Shown here: positions 1,169 to 27,591 of the stretch, one piece after another
How the letters are laid out: each line of letters opens with the position of its first letter
Position numbering within the stretch: the first letter of the stretch is position 1
Source: a virus
Virus record (IMG/VR): IMGVR_UViG_3300043775_000300
Location: 1 to 30,984 of that record
DNA: 30,984 nucleotides
Direction: 5' to 3' (one strand)
Notes under the pieces: generated by a model
What the model saw: only the letters and a program-made list of their open reading frames with translations
Told to the model about the DNA's origin: nothing
The model's database searches: none
Program-made: the position numbers and the translations under genes

Positions 1169-1687
1169 TTATCTTATCCCAAATTTATTATTTCGTTTTC
1201 CACTATATTGCATAGAAGCACTTGCTTGAGAAATATTTAAATCTTTAGCACATTCACTAATGCTATCATATGATTTATTTGTGTGCTCACAAAATACTGA
1301 TTTTTTTACTTTATCAATTGCCCATGTTGGAGTTACTCCATTCATTCTTTCTCTGATTTTATTTACATTTTCAATCGAATGTTTTTTACCTAAAAATCCA
1401 TTTAAATTTGCATCCTCATTAATGTGATTTAAACCATCATTTATTGTGTTGTAATACCTAATGTAGATACTTTCCATTTTATTCTTTTCATACAAATTGT
1501 CTGAAATAAATAATGTTTCAATATTATGATTGTCAAATCCATGTTTTCTTATTGACGCATATAGTTTACAGTTCTTGTTCTTAGCACGATATTTATGTTC
1601 AATCATACGTCTGTCGATATTGTTAGATTGACCAATATAGATTTTACCTGATGGACTTGTTATTTTATATATTCCTGATACTGCCAT
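1169..1687 (-). CDS. GIY-YIG homing endonuclease with NUMOD DNA-binding modules
   Basis: This 172-residue protein starts with the GIY-YIG nuclease core: SGIYKITSPSGKIYIGQS (residues 4-21) with the catalytic-type Arg in NIDRRMIEHK (about 23-32) and a Glu in KNKMESIYI (about 68-76). The C-terminal half has a NUMOD3-like segment, LGKKHSIENVNKIRERMNG, and a NUMOD1/IENR1-like helix-turn-helix, YDSISECAKDLNISQASASM. Free-standing genes of this type spread by cutting allelic sites. Its ATG overlaps the portal stop (TAATG) and its stop lies one base before the connector ATG, so it is inserted cleanly between two essential genes without obvious disruption. It is more A/T-rich than its neighbours, consistent with transfer. 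Confidence 0.9.
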   Translation of the reverse strand: MAVSGIYKITSPSGKIYIGQSNNIDRRMIEHKYRAKNKNCKLYASIRKHGFDNHNIETLFISDNLYEKNKMESIYIRYYNTINDGLNHINEDANLNGFLGKKHSIENVNKIRERMNGVTPTWAIDKVKKSVFCEHTNKSYDSISECAKDLNISQASASMQYSGKRNNKFGIR

Positions 1688-6196: not shown

Positions 6197-6748
6197 TTAT
6201 TTAATTAAAGATTTTGCCGAATTTAATTCTCTTTCATATGATACAATTGCTTGAGCAGAATCTTCTAATAACATATCTAAATTGTCAATCGTTTGAATTA
6301 AATCAGAATATTGTTTACTACTTTTTGCATCAATACCTAATTCTTTTGATGTCTGTTCTATATCAAATTTTATTGCCTTTGCTTTTGCAATAATATTTTT
6401 TATAGAGGTTTGTCCTGCTTTAACATTTTTTATTTTTGCATCTGAATTAGAGATGTTATTTTTTAAATCATTAGAAGATTGATTAAATTTACCAGTGATA
6501 AAGTCATATTGTTTTTTAACTTCAACAAATTGTTTTTTATCTGATTCAAATAGTCTTGTATTCTTAATTAATACATCATAAGATTTATCAATATCTACAA
6601 TAGCACCACCAACAGATTTAATTACTTTAGATGATTCTTGATTTAATTTAGAAACATCTTCTTTAATACCAAGTTCTACTTCGTGTTTTGCTAACTCAGT
6701 AACATCATTGATTGCTGATACTTTCTTAAATACTTCATTTAAACCCAT
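6197..6748 (-). CDS. Coiled-coil virion-associated protein (putative)
   Basis: A 183-residue, almost entirely helical protein with heptad-like spacing (KSVGGAIVDIDKSYDVLIKN, KQYDFITGKFNQSSNDLKNN, QTIDNLDMLLEDSAQAIVSY). The start, MGLNEVFKKVSAINDVTELA, is of a type I recall among small structural proteins of Bacteroidota phages. It lies between the Cys-rich gene (beyond the HNH insertion) and the scaffold-like gene, inside the head-assembly cluster. It contains a KHEVEL peptide that is also present in the XkdF-like protein. The function is unknown; an inner-head or assembly role is inferred from neighbours. Confidence 0.6.
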   Translation of the reverse strand: MGLNEVFKKVSAINDVTELAKHEVELGIKEDVSKLNQESSKVIKSVGGAIVDIDKSYDVLIKNTRLFESDKKQFVEVKKQYDFITGKFNQSSNDLKNNISNSDAKIKNVKAGQTSIKNIIAKAKAIKFDIEQTSKELGIDAKSSKQYSDLIQTIDNLDMLLEDSAQAIVSYERELNSAKSLIK

Positions 6749-6797
6749 TGTTCTTTTTTTATTACAATATTAGAACGAATACAATTAAATTTTGTTG

Positions 6798-6805
6798 TAT
6801 ATTTG
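6798..6805 (+). promoter_or_regulatory. Likely promoter -7 box for HNH gene
   Basis: TATATTTG on the plus strand matches the Bacteroidota TAnnTTTG -7 box. It lies 24 bases before the GTG at 6829, on the strand opposite to all other genes. I do not see a TTG at the usual 17-23-base spacing upstream, so it may be weak. Confidence 0.45.
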
Positions 6806-6828
6806 ATGTGCAACTAACTGTAATTAAA

Positions 6829-7581
6829 GTGAATAAAATTAAAATACAACGAAAGAAATGTGGTACTTATTTACCTAAAGAAGATGCAATTAATAAATTA
6901 AAACAATATCTTAAATCACAGAAAACAATATTGATTAAAACCTATACAGAAATAATTTCTTTTAATGAAAATATAAGTTTTGATGATGATTTGGATTTTA
7001 ATGAAATATCAAAATCAGAAATATTAAATAGATATTTTAAATATGTTAAAATGTATGAGGAACTTGAAATGTATGATATTAAAACAATACATAAAGCATC
7101 TTTAAACTCTACAAAAAGAATGTTTCCATTTTACTATTGTAGAAAGTGTGATGATTTATCCAAGTATAATATTTTGTATAATAATATTATTTGTAATAAA
7201 TGCGAACAAAAAAAATATTTAAAGTGGCAAAAAGAAAAGAAAAAAACAAACGATTCTTATAGATTTATTTGCAATACAAGGGCATTAATTCACATAACTA
7301 TAAAAAATCAAGGATATAAAAAAAACACCAAAGCATCTAAAATATTAGGGTGCGATTGGGAAGTTTTCAAGACATATATTGAACGTAAATTCACTGAAGG
7401 TATGTCTTGGACTAATTATGGCAAATGGCATCTTGACCATATATACCCAATAAGTAAAGCCACCTCGTATGAAATGGCTTTAGAATTAAATCACTATACT
7501 AATTTTCAGCCTTTATGGGCATTTGATAATTATAGTAAAAATAATAAGATTGTAGAACATCAAAGAATGCTGCCTTTTTAA
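6829..7581 (+). CDS. HNH homing endonuclease on the antisense strand
   Basis: About 250 residues from the GTG at 6829. An upstream TTG at 6748 overlaps the opposite gene's start and the intervening frame has no convincing start. A zinc-ribbon-like CRKC...CNKC pair lies mid-protein. Near the C-terminus is the HNH core: WHLDHIYPISKATSYEMALE, then LNHYTNFQPLWAFDNYSKNN, with His-Asp-His, the central Asn and the final Asn/Lys in place. The gene is the only one on the plus strand, is markedly AT-rich, and ends with no gap against the Cys-rich gene's stop, so it reads as a mobile endonuclease inserted between two late genes. It has its own likely promoter. Confidence 0.85.
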   Translation: MNKIKIQRKKCGTYLPKEDAINKLKQYLKSQKTILIKTYTEIISFNENISFDDDLDFNEISKSEILNRYFKYVKMYEELEMYDIKTIHKASLNSTKRMFPFYYCRKCDDLSKYNILYNNIICNKCEQKKYLKWQKEKKKTNDSYRFICNTRALIHITIKNQGYKKNTKASKILGCDWEVFKTYIERKFTEGMSWTNYGKWHLDHIYPISKATSYEMALELNHYTNFQPLWAFDNYSKNNKIVEHQRMLPF

Positions 7582-16155: not shown

Positions 16156-17293
16156 AGTTACTTTTTAATCCTAATGATTCCATCTCATGATATCGTAATG
16201 CATCAATAGCGTGATTGAAATGGTCAATAGGTACGTTTGTTTTGTCACCGTCTTTCTTTAGTGACCAGCAATAACTCCTCAGCTCTTTGATTAGGTTCGT
16301 GCTTTGGGAGGTAACTAAATACTCCTGTCGTTGCATGATGTCAATTCCAAACCTGATTGAATCAGTTCCTTTTGTTACGCCCTTAATCATTTTGCCGAAC
16401 CTTCGAATCTCTTCAATTGATTTCGGTTCTGAACTATCAGCATAAATAGTAACGTGATTAGGTAACACCTTAGCGATGTCAGAGTTTACCATTCCTGTTC
16501 GATAACAGATTTCGTTTACTATCCGTTTACCATTCCAATTGTAGACTTCAATTGCTGAGGTAGGGTCATTCGTGTATCCAAAGTCAAGTCCGATTCCAAT
16601 CAACTTAGCTTCGGTTGGTATTGTGTCGATTGTTTTCCAGTTGTTGAAGATTACTCCCTCAAGGCTTCCGATTTCTCCAAGTCCATATACCCGCCACCAA
16701 TTCGCCCAATAAGAACTCGTTGCTGCTTTCTCACGGTTCTTTTCTATTTGGCTTACTATGGATTCATCAAGTGCTTCGTTATCCTTGTAGGTTAAAATAA
16801 TGAAATCTGAATCAGGTTCGTCTTTCAGTTCAGTGTGTACCCAAAACTCATTTGCTGGGTTGAAGTCTAAGAATATCTCTTTCTTTGTACGGATGGAAAG
16901 CTCATTGTAAGATTCGAAGCTCACGTTGTTGCACTCGTTAATGTAGAGAACGTCACGCCTTGCTCCTCTGAGTTTAGATGAATCATCTGCCGAGAAGAAC
17001 TCCATTACACTTCCATTGCCAAACTCGTATCTTAGAAGTGACTTATTGAATCGGTCTTCAATATACCGTCCTGTCCACCTCATGACTTTTGTGAAATCTT
17101 TTAATGCACCGCGTCGTAAATGTGGGATTGATTCAGCTACAACCGAAACTTCTAAGTTAGGATAGCGAGTACATCGGTCAATCAATACAGGGAGAATACC
17201 AAAGGTCTTACCTGCTGATGTTCCACCTTGAATTATCTTGATTCGTTTTTTTAACGCTAAGATTTTATTTATTGCTGTCGTTCTCTTGAACAT
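16133..17293 (-). CDS. terL: Terminase large subunit
   Basis: A 386-residue ATPase-nuclease that packages DNA into proheads. Walker A is IQGGTSAGKT (residues 21-30), Walker B is VLYINECN (about 135-142), and a coupling-type motif follows (FLDFNPANEFWVHTE). The C-terminal nuclease has GIGLDFGYTNDPTSA, IYADSSEP and DHFNHAIDALRYH, giving the expected acidic metal ligands. It resembles the PBSX-like terminase group. Its start overlaps the small-subunit gene by 29 bases. Together with the circular assembly this suggests headful packaging, but the packaging type cannot be decided from sequence alone. Confidence 0.93.
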   Translation of the reverse strand: MFKRTTAINKILALKKRIKIIQGGTSAGKTFGILPVLIDRCTRYPNLEVSVVAESIPHLRRGALKDFTKVMRWTGRYIEDRFNKSLLRYEFGNGSVMEFFSADDSSKLRGARRDVLYINECNNVSFESYNELSIRTKKEIFLDFNPANEFWVHTELKDEPDSDFIILTYKDNEALDESIVSQIEKNREKAATSSYWANWWRVYGLGEIGSLEGVIFNNWKTIDTIPTEAKLIGIGLDFGYTNDPTSAIEVYNWNGKRIVNEICYRTGMVNSDIAKVLPNHVTIYADSSEPKSIEEIRRFGKMIKGVTKGTDSIRFGIDIMQRQEYLVTSQSTNLIKELRSYCWSLKKDGDKTNVPIDHFNHAIDALRYHEMESLGLKSNYGKYFIR

Positions 17294-24004: not shown

Positions 24005-24984
24005 TAGAAATTCGTGTTTTGTTTAATACTGTTTAACTTTTGTTCTATCATAGTTAATTGCTTTGATTCGTCTTTTTGTGGAGCTGCAAATATCTTTTGG
24101 TATACATTAGGAGCAGTAATTTCCTGTTCAAAGTAACTCAATCTTTCTTTATCAAACCATATTTCAATTTTACCGATGTTTCCATTTGAACGTGGCTTAA
24201 TCTTATTGAAGTATATTTCTGCAAGATTGTATGTTGGGTCTTCCCTGTGTACTGTAATCATGCATTTCCCACTATTAAACCACTCAGAACCACCTTTTAA
24301 ATCATATGGATTAGGAGGATTTCTTTTTCCGTTTTCCTTTTCAGTTAGTTTTGGGTGAATAATTGTATGCAAATGTAAACCATTATCCTCAGCAATTTGA
24401 TTTCTGTATGGCAAAACATACTCTAAGTATTGTGCATATCCTCCGTATTCATTGTATGGATGGTTTAAATCTTTCCAACTATCAATTGAAGCAGTGTGCA
24501 AATCATCTTTCTTTTTTATTTCAACTGCCATATCCCAAAATTGAATAGGAGTTAACTTAGCTTTAATGTCTGCTCTTGTTAAAACTTTAAAGTGTTGAAT
24601 AACCCAGTCAATGGCTTGTGTAATTTCTGAATCTTGTATTACATTTCTATCATCAGGATTAAAACTTTTACCTGTCTTTTTGTGGATTAAATCTGCTATG
24701 ATTTCAACATTGCTTCCAACATCAGGAAAATAAACTAAATGCTTCCATCCGTAAAACTTAGATGTGTTCATTAAGCATTCCATTAAAACCTGTGTTTTAC
24801 CACTCATTGGAAAACCTGTCCAATCTGTACAGTTACCTAATGACATTGAGTAATGTTCATGCAAACTTTTAAATCCTAAATACTTCCCTTTTTGATGGTA
24901 ATTATCTCGGTGTTTAAATAAGTCAGTTATTACATCTCCTGCTTGTGTTATTTTAAATCCGTTTAGCTCCATGGTGCTTTCCAT
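24004..24984 (-). CDS. DnaB/RecA-type replicative helicase-like ATPase
   Basis: A 326-residue protein with Walker A, TGFPMSGKTQVLMECLMNTS (from residue 56). A strand with acidic residue, DLHTASIDSWKDL, is in the Walker B region. Later segments include HTIIHPKLTEKENGKRNPPN and GGSEWFNSGKCMITVHREDP, where helicases of this group carry a catalytic and arginine-finger-like part. It lacks a DnaB N-terminal domain, so it is the short helicase-core form. The ATG at 24984 overlaps the initiator gene; a start at 24972 is also possible. It follows the initiator in the same unit, as in lambda O-P-like arrangements. Confidence 0.78.
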   Translation of the reverse strand: MESTMELNGFKITQAGDVITDLFKHRDNYHQKGKYLGFKSLHEHYSMSLGNCTDWTGFPMSGKTQVLMECLMNTSKFYGWKHLVYFPDVGSNVEIIADLIHKKTGKSFNPDDRNVIQDSEITQAIDWVIQHFKVLTRADIKAKLTPIQFWDMAVEIKKKDDLHTASIDSWKDLNHPYNEYGGYAQYLEYVLPYRNQIAEDNGLHLHTIIHPKLTEKENGKRNPPNPYDLKGGSEWFNSGKCMITVHREDPTYNLAEIYFNKIKPRSNGNIGKIEIWFDKERLSYFEQEITAPNVYQKIFAAPQKDESKQLTMIEQKLNSIKQNTNF

Positions 24985-25607
24985 TTATTAGGTTCGTTTA
25001 TTTCTTCTATTGTTTGTATCTTATCCCAAAACAAACCCTGCCATCCCATTTCAATAGATTTGTTTATTACAAACTTACATTGTTCATTTGTATAACTTTC
25101 CATTTTCTTTAAAATAGTATTTATCGTTGCCTGACTTAACGCCTTACGAATAGACTTTCTGTAATCAATCCAAGCATCTAAAATGATTTCTTTTTCATTC
25201 TTTTCTTTCTTATCATTCTTGTTTGGTGTCATTTGCGTTTCATCTGCGTTTCGTTTGCGTTTCATCTGCGTTTCATCTGCGTTTCTTTCACCTTGATAAG
25301 TATCATAGTTACAGATAGTTAAGCGTGTCGTTAAGTGTTCCGATTTTAATACAATCATTGAATCAGCTTCGAGCAACTTCAGAAAACGTCTTACCTTAGA
25401 CTTATCACAATTCCAACGCCTCGAAAACGTATCTAAACTGCATAGTGTTTCACCCCTATGACACGTCAAAACAGTACCTTTAATGTTTATTTTTTGCTCT
25501 GAGTGATTAACCAACGTAAGTAAGTCAATCCAATTTCTGAATTTCCAAGCATCTTCAAAAATCCAATGAGAAGTAATTTCTCTGTCTAATTTAATCCACG
25601 ACTTCAT
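24963..25607 (-). CDS. Replication initiator, winged-helix plus DnaD-like C-terminus
   Basis: A 214-residue protein with an N-terminal winged-helix-like domain (about residues 1-105; TFSRRWNCDKSKVRRFLKLL is the recognition-helix region). A linker (about 106-145) contains the repeated 11-residue unit RNADETQMKRK, and the C-terminal domain (about 145-214) includes YRKSIRKALSQATINTILKK and INKSIEMGWQGLFWDK, which resembles phage replication-initiator and DnaD-like tails. It should bind the origin and load the helicase, encoded next. The linker coding sequence carries 11-bp iterons with AT-rich DNA beside them. A structured leader precedes the start codon. Confidence 0.78.
   Translation of the reverse strand: MKSWIKLDREITSHWIFEDAWKFRNWIDLLTLVNHSEQKINIKGTVLTCHRGETLCSLDTFSRRWNCDKSKVRRFLKLLEADSMIVLKSEHLTTRLTICNYDTYQGERNADETQMKRKRNADETQMTPNKNDKKEKNEKEIILDAWIDYRKSIRKALSQATINTILKKMESYTNEQCKFVINKSIEMGWQGLFWDKIQTIEEINEPNKWKAPWS
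25185..25285. other. Predicted replication origin inside initiator gene
   Basis: Four full and one partial 11-bp iterons (25235-25285) adjoin an AT-rich, strand-asymmetric stretch (25185-25225; pyrimidine-rich on plus, purine-rich on minus). Lambda-like phages place iterons and an adjacent AT-rich unwinding region in the linker of the initiator gene in the same way. There is no functional proof in the sequence. Confidence 0.68.
25235..25285. repeat. 11-bp tandem iterons
   Basis: Units GCGTTTCATCT (25235-25245), GCGTTTCGTTT (25246-25256), GCGTTTCATCT (25257-25267), GCGTTTCATCT (25268-25278) and GCGTTTC (25279-25285). Since 11 is not a multiple of 3, the same DNA unit is read in all three frames, producing an 11-residue protein repeat. 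Confidence 0.93.
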
Positions 25608-25610
25608 TTA

Positions 25611-25706
25611 ACTGCCTTTAAATAGTAAAACCCTATCAGCGTTCGCAAGGCAGTGCTACTAACCAATAGGGTTTCTAATAATGTTTTCTTTACGGTCTGC
25701 CTACCG
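25611..25706 (-). promoter_or_regulatory. Structured leader before the replication initiator (pseudoknot-like)
   Basis: On the minus strand, going 5' to 3', a small hairpin CGGT-AGGCAG-ACCG (25706-25693) comes first. Then AAACCCTAT (25674-25666) can pair with ATAGGGTTT (25636-25628), and ACTGCCTT (25654-25647) with AAGGCAGT (25618-25611). The two long pairings interleave (a-b-a'-b'), which is an H-type pseudoknot. The last strand ends 3 bases before the initiator ATG. AGGCAG in the first hairpin loop could compete for the same CTGCCT. Confidence 0.62.
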
Positions 25707-25725
25707 ATACACAAATATAACGTAA

Positions 25726-26124
25726 TTATTCAATTATTGTTTTGTAATCATCATAATAATTTTCTTTAATTCGTCTTTTTATTATTCTCAAATCGTATAA
25801 CTTATTACAATACATAATATCTTCAACTAAATTACGCTTTGGAGGCTCAAATTTCAATCCCGTTAATTCAGCAACGTAATCACTAATTTCAGTTGAATAA
25901 ATGTCCGCATATAACTCAGACATTATTTTGTGAGTCTTTATGTTGTGAATAACTGAAGCATGGTGTTGATTAAACATTTCACCTATTTGCCTGAAATTCA
26001 TCCCTAATTCTCTTAGCTTACTTTGTAAATAACATTTACGATAAATTATTTCTCGTTTTCTGTTGCGTGCATTTAAACCATCTCGTTCAATTAGATAGTT
26101 TATTTTATCTATAAATTCGCTCAT
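25726..26124 (-). CDS. DnaA domain IV-like DNA-binding protein
   Basis: A 132-residue protein beginning MSEFIDKINYLIERDGLNAR. Residues about 20-65 (KREIIYRKCYLQSKLRELGM, FRQIGEMFNQHHASVIHNIK) match the C-terminal DnaA DNA-binding domain: a basic helix, then the signature where DnaA has 'GRDHTTVIH' and this protein has 'NQHHASVIH'. The ATPase domain of DnaA is absent. It precedes the initiator gene by about 118 bases. It might bind DnaA-box-like sites, act as a competitor of host DnaA or recruit the origin complex; the domain similarity is the only support. Confidence 0.72.
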   Translation of the reverse strand: MSEFIDKINYLIERDGLNARNRKREIIYRKCYLQSKLRELGMNFRQIGEMFNQHHASVIHNIKTHKIMSELYADIYSTEISDYVAELTGLKFEPPKRNLVEDIMYCNKLYDLRIIKRRIKENYYDDYKTIIE

Positions 26125-27519: not shown

Positions 27520-27520
27520 C

Positions 27521-27556
27521 AAAAAAAGGGTTAACGCTTTCAACTGTCAACCCTTT
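27521..27556 (-). terminator. Strong intrinsic terminator of the late unit
   Basis: On the minus strand AAAGGGTTGAC pairs with GTTAACCCTTT (eleven pairs including one G-U) around a 10-base loop and is followed by a run of T. It follows the metallophosphoesterase stop by 36 bases and ends the unit that begins at the sigma factor. Confidence 0.9.
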
Positions 27557-27591
27557 CTTAAAACCTAATTAGCTATAAAAGCACAAATATA

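Follow-up and report, generated by a model that had tools for sequence, protein, structure and literature searches.

A covarying leader RNA ahead of viral replication genes and a candidate loop-swapping switch at the start codon

The leader and its genomic setting

The window analysed here is the complete IMG/VR record IMGVR_UViG_3300043775_000300 (positions 1-30,984), which derives from a virus that infects Bacteroidota-type bacteria, and the leader under study occupies positions 25607-25719 of its minus strand. It separates a gene for a DnaD-like helicase loader, which also matches phage replication proteins in tblastn, from an upstream gene with a DnaA C-terminal-like domain, whose stop codon lies 6 nt ahead of the promoter box (Table 1). 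An earlier note, made from this sequence alone, had placed the leader right beside the ATG of a replication gene and a promoter box just upstream of it, and both placements hold, the latter through a box that fits the Bacteroidota -7 consensus TAnnTTTG (PMC9723704). The 9-bp complementary pair and the small upstream hairpin exposing AGGCAG, which the same note had pointed out, were likewise found at the positions given in Table 1, and the 9-bp helix is indeed interleaved with an 8-bp pair of the minus strand formed by ACTGCCTT (25654-25647) and AAGGCAGT (25618-25611). The internal loop of hairpin 2 is, as judged from its sequence, putatively of the loop-E type.

Table 1. Features of the leader and its flanking genes, in transcript order (positions in the window)
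Feature	Position	Strand	Sequence	Remark
Upstream gene, DnaA C-terminal (HTH)-like domain	25726-26124	-		Pfam Bac_DnaA_C, E 9.5e-6, under the curated cut-off
Promoter -7 box	25712-25719	-	TATATTTG	fits Bacteroidota TAnnTTTG; box present in nearly every relative
Hairpin 1	25693-25706	-	stem CGGT/ACCG (25706-25703 with 25696-25693)	stem covaries in group B
K1, hexaloop of hairpin 1	25702-25697	-	AGGCAG	complementary to K2 in group A
Single-stranded A/U spacer	25675-25683	-	CATTATTAG; family consensus ATTATTGA	kept in groups A and B
Hairpin 2	25628-25674	-		terminator-like; stems 100% paired in group B
Hairpin 2, lower stem, 9 bp	25674-25666 with 25636-25628	-	AAACCCTAT with ATAGGGTTT	
Hairpin 2, internal loop	25660-25657 with 25644-25642	-	AGUA/GAA	
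Hairpin 2, upper stem	25656-25654 with 25647-25645	-	GCA/TGC	
K2, hexaloop of hairpin 2	25648-25653	-	CTGCCT	complementary to K1 and K3 alike
U-tract, shortened	25627-25630	-	UUUU then ACUAUUU	U6-U7 in most relatives
Hairpin 3	25605-25624	-	UAUUUAA[AGGCAG]UUAAAUG	3' arm holds the start codon AUG (25607-25605)
K3, loop of hairpin 3	25612-25617	-	AGGCAG, same as K1	matches K2 in six alleles
Downstream gene, DnaD-like helicase loader (replication initiation)	24963-25607	-		PHROG 2514, E 7e-29

Folding energy alone does not establish the structure of the leader, which folds at -25.3 kcal/mol with a z-score of -1.53 and is equalled by 12 of 200 shuffles; comparison with relatives does establish it. 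A chance fold, against which the energy is unconvincing on its own, is ruled out by these comparative data. The string AAGGCAG is commoner in the window than expected (7 versus 2.75 copies), and those surplus copies that were checked do not lie at gene starts.

The genes behind the leader differ among relatives and include DnaD-like, DUF6291, NUMOD4/HNH and DUF6378 genes as well as small ORFs; such a variety of unrelated genes behind one leader counts against autoregulation by the initiator, which the earlier note had raised. Whichever gene comes next, the U-tract and the ATG are 16-22 nt apart in nearly all members. The upstream gene of the window (compared over 25598-26124) recurs at 98-100% identity beside other leader versions and genes (L112/L130 and L129), which places the leader at a module boundary and indicates that modules are exchanged there. 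NUMOD4/HNH-type endonuclease genes, so called from a Pfam run on the L178 gene only, lie directly behind the leader in L178, L138, L107, L189, L071, L073 and L205, a pattern that looks as if homing genes had been inserted at the leader boundary. Within the window itself, the ORFs at 1169-1687 (minus strand) and 6748-7581 (plus strand) resemble, by eye, GIY-YIG and HNH endonucleases.

A family of viral leaders with a kissing core

On comparative grounds the leader belongs to one large family of ~110-nt leaders, gathered by a protein search that yielded 80 viral loci and by DNA pattern scans that added many more, the counts from the scans being lower bounds. More than 100 distinct copies are found in viral contigs, in addition to one in Tenacibaculum phage Gundel_1, and the core of TAnnTTTG box, hairpin 1, A/U spacer, terminator-like hairpin 2 and U6-7 tract is common to the family, with the same anatomy in near-identical leaders (L002, L003) and in diverged ones (L005, L006, L012, L016, L033). 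Two covariance models were built, for a group A that includes the window and for a group B, and since each model finds the other group's members, the two groups form a single family. The group B model matches 34 and the group A model 33 of a set of 40 records that consists almost entirely of IMG/VR contigs 17-38 kb long. A contig of ~30 kb nearly always holds a single copy, and a few contigs hold two (L153, L167, L205, L073, L220).

The stems and the loop-loop pairing are maintained through compensatory change. In an alignment of 70 distinct leaders of group B, pairing is kept in 99.7% of 1888 cells, compared with 73.6% in shuffles, both sides have changed at 23 of the 27 pairs, and the covariation score reaches 0.727 against 0.20 when shuffled and at most 0.077 when slid. 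By helix, the proportion of pairs kept is 99.7% in hairpin 1, 99.3% in K1-K2 and 100% in both the lower and the upper stem of hairpin 2. The K1-K2 helix is Watson-Crick at 8 of 8 positions in 66 of the 70 leaders, through 20 alleles and with no G-U pair, and compensatory changes occur at 6 of its 8 positions; the group B alignment was fitted to a model lacking the K1-K2 pairs, so that the fit does not favour them, and some members had been gathered with a K1-K2 complementarity filter (at least 5), whereas the pattern scans made no such demand. In group A, the loops of hairpins 1 and 2 are each 6 or 7 nt long and complementary to one another, and K1 is fully complementary to K2 in nearly all of the 42 distinct leaders, which were filtered for this complementarity but not for K3. 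The internal loop of hairpin 2 reads AGUA/GAA in group A versus UGAA/GGAU in group B. The K loops of group B vary no more than its stems, which makes it less likely that they determine specificity and are under diversifying selection. Overall, the comparisons point to the K1:K2 kissing pair, rather than K2:K3, as the invariant core of what is almost certainly a real structured RNA family and, in view of the matching changes in more than 100 related viral leaders, very probably an undescribed gene-control element.

Outside metagenomic contigs the family is scarce. The one isolate found to carry it is Gundel_1 (L246), where the leader stands ahead of a gene annotated as an antirepressor; Gundel_1 was also the sole match of the group B consensus among phages, and searches against phages with the group A consensus and, by BLASTN, with the whole region gave no match. 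A second, weak covariance-model match of 32 bits lies at 16794-16919 of the same phage (MT732474.1). The RNA is carried by 1 of 397 Flavobacteriaceae genomes, and a search for a tyrosine integrase (PF00589) in 23 records found none; on both counts most carriers are probably virulent phages. In the bacterial genome scan, all 8 matches look like chance.

Searches against described RNA families were also negative. At the gathering threshold, cmscan against Rfam 15 gave no match in the window, and at E values of up to 1 it gave none in the leaders of three relatives' loci. RT-14 RNA (RF02921), reportedly from Weinberg 2017, scores a sub-threshold 28 bits on the window and at best 25.1 bits in the records of 22 relatives, none of them above the cut-off, and membership was rejected against its curated gathering threshold of 48.1 bits; the 3' hairpin of RT-14 and hairpin 2 of the leader share an UUAGUAGC...GCGAA internal-loop motif. 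A literature search found no paper on the leader RNA, and by these comparisons it is a new RNA family, reaching no Rfam threshold.

Other promoter-terminator stretches were also noticed. A second TATATTTG box lies within window positions 27520-27591 (minus strand), followed after ~45 nt by a terminator-like hairpin and a T7 run at the 3' end of an exonuclease gene; similar stretches with CCTAACCACTACNCATAGCG conserved lie at L134:7035-7121 and L155:3189-3279, and the one in the window may be another short RNA. A further conserved promoter, short leader and terminator, marked by CATAATTNATAGGTT..AACGAGAACCCTTACTTCGGTAGGGGTTTTTTAG, is found at L146:4058-4158, L166:4445-4544 and L180:5942-6042, as a weak covariance-model match in contigs that also carry the main leader.

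A third strand at the start codon and how it might be used

In 35 of the 42 distinct group A leaders, a strand 0-6 nt ahead of the ATG, K3, is identical to the complement of K2. It does so through six alleles (AGGCAG, AAGCAG, GAGCAG, GTGCAG, GTCGCAG and GTTGCAG), and support was counted by alleles rather than by sequences, since the members are related. Control regions yield the K3 strings 0 times out of 504, and 0 of the 72 group B leaders checked carry their own K1 hexamer at the K3 position. Where the loops are hexamers, K3 forms the loop of an A/U start-codon hairpin, and the mean probability of a paired AUG is 0.81 (n=11) versus 0.42 in group B (n=62); heptaloop K3 alleles form no such hairpin. 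We consider it highly likely from these patterns that K2 has two alternative partners. Because K3 is missing from group B and from some group A members, a switch at the start codon is unlikely to be the family-wide function.

These results bear directly on the pseudoknot with a competing third strand that the earlier note had read from the window. Compensatory changes among related leaders, which it had named as a check, proved strongly positive, in the 70 group B leaders as in the six K3 alleles, and its proposal of a competing strand with which CTGCCT could switch partners is supported by the three-way covariation in which K3 tracks K2. The 8-bp pair exists, but only its hexamer CTGCCT/AGGCAG is conserved; the strand nearest the ATG is a competing partner, but it belongs to one subgroup and forms the loop of an A/U hairpin in which the ATG lies; and the helices do interleave, but the 9-bp stem belongs to a terminator-like hairpin rather than to half of a T4 gene-32-type pseudoknot. 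The constant pairing is the kiss between hairpins 1 and 2 rather than K2:K3.

As the best overall explanation we favour, with reasonable though limited confidence, a structured 5' leader acting in cis on the replication operon and combining attenuation with switching of K2 between K1 and the start-codon hairpin. Transcription would start just past the TATATTTG box, hairpin 1 would fold first, and its loop K1 would then kiss K2 in the loop of hairpin 2, in the fold evidenced by covariation. In most relatives, hairpin 2 and the U6-7 tract resemble an intrinsic terminator 16-22 nt ahead of the start codon, and part of the transcripts should stop there as a ~100-nt RNA; that hairpin 2 attenuates transcription in the relatives is an evenly balanced proposition, and a less probable one in the window. 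In the window's subgroup, a read-through transcript would carry K3 at the start codon, and K2 may bind either K1 or K3 because K3 is a second copy of the K1 sequence. Pairing of K2 with K3 should make hairpin 3, a weak hairpin around the start codon, more stable and impede ribosomes, and K1 should compete for K2 and leave K3 free, the opposite sign being possible. An effect of K2:K3 on translation initiation is likely, and it could fall either way whether the K3-paired state is the OFF state. Since the order of synthesis probably favours kissing by K1, a further putative factor may be required for the K3 state, and the switch would be thrown by a putative factor that opens hairpin 1 or binds to it. 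Flavobacterium mRNAs lack Shine-Dalgarno sequences and start-proximal structure tunes their translation (PMC6847099), which makes it plausible that a hairpin at the start codon, strengthened by loop kissing, serves as a gate. We propose, with slightly less than even confidence, that the leader represents a widespread and so far undescribed class of three-hairpin RNA switch in phages, in which loop 2 chooses between the identical loops 1 and 3 and the swap of partners gates translation of the replication gene without a Shine-Dalgarno sequence.

A simpler promoter-plus-terminator unit, serving as an attenuator and/or a stand-alone ~100-nt small RNA with a functional kissing fold and K3 as a minor refinement, has not quite an even chance of being the better description. 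It would account for the promoter box at the 5' end and the U6-7 tract at the 3' end of nearly all members, for the lack of K3 in group B and for the several unrelated genes downstream, but it sits poorly with a next start codon constantly 16-22 nt away, where another promoter would not fit, with a K3 that follows K2 across six alleles, and with the UUUU of the window, which has lost most of the tract that nearly all relatives keep.

A trans-acting role for the terminated leader, as an antisense or immunity RNA like the CI RNA of satellite phage P4, is unlikely. The leader does share with CI RNA an A-B-C order before replication genes, in which the middle strand is complementary to a copy upstream of it and to another downstream (PMC4825925). 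Superinfection immunity of this kind was suggested by the variation of the K loops and is weakened by the equal variation of the stems, which gives no sign of diversifying specificity, by the lack of a tyrosine integrase in the 23 contigs together with the near-absence of the RNA from Flavobacteriaceae genomes, and by the lack of further targets, K1 octamers elsewhere in the available group B loci numbering 0 against 2.4 expected. Still less probable is a ligand-sensing riboswitch with the kissing fold as aptamer and hairpin 2 as expression platform: the compact fold, the conserved single-stranded spacer and the non-canonical internal loops would suit one, but groups A and B have different internal loops, so that no invariant pocket is apparent, and the downstream genes share no metabolic theme. 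Finally, three copies of a protein-binding DNA repeat (iterons) at a replication origin, as the adjoining replication genes and the two direct and one inverted copies of the hexamer might suggest, are very improbable, as compensatory changes preserve the pairing of the stems that flank the loops, and the copies fall exactly in hairpin loops behind a promoter.

The leader adds a clearly covarying RNA family, placed before replication genes, to apparently virulent phages of Bacteroidota-type hosts, where RNA-based control is little known. Its three complementary loops make the mechanism directly testable through compensatory mutation; if true, the mechanism would show how an exchange of loop partners can gate a start codon in bacteria that make no use of Shine-Dalgarno sequences, and the interchangeable loop sequences would be of value as building blocks in RNA design.

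Comparison with known systems

The T4 gene 32 leader offers a comparable phage pseudoknot controlling a replication gene. The T4 pseudoknot sits 67 nt ahead of the start, where the SSB encoded by the gene binds it (PMC3014915); in the present leader the third strand overlaps the region of the start, and the gene codes for a DnaD-like loader. CI RNA of P4 belongs to a lysogenic satellite, is processed, acts in trans and causes premature termination before the replication genes (PMC4825925). The leader resembles it in having one strand that can pair with a copy on either side, and in the premature termination predicted ahead of replication genes; in contrast to P4, searches among the leader's carriers found no tyrosine integrase (23 records) and no further K1 targets (group B loci).

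The closer parallel is the IncI/IncB-type rep leader of ColIb-P9 repZ, in which, according to work cited in PMC10724649, one loop is contested by a pseudoknot strand near the rep start and by a kissing loop. Both elements have counterparts in the leader, where, judged by comparison, K2 can pair with K3, the strand beside the start of the initiator gene (in six alleles), as well as with the competing kissing loop K1. In ColIb-P9 repZ the competing loop belongs to a separate antisense RNA, and translation is turned on by the pseudoknot, whereas here the rival loop would be hairpin 1 of the same RNA, acting in cis; a search near the leader for the TATATTTG form of the box on the plus strand found none. 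The leader also differs in having no AUG-started leader peptide, a search for ATG starts between the promoter box and the gene's ATG having found none, and no sequence relation between the two is known. By analogy, ColIb-P9 repZ is nonetheless the nearest known logic to that of the leader, which on this comparison works like a known kind of loop-competition switch.
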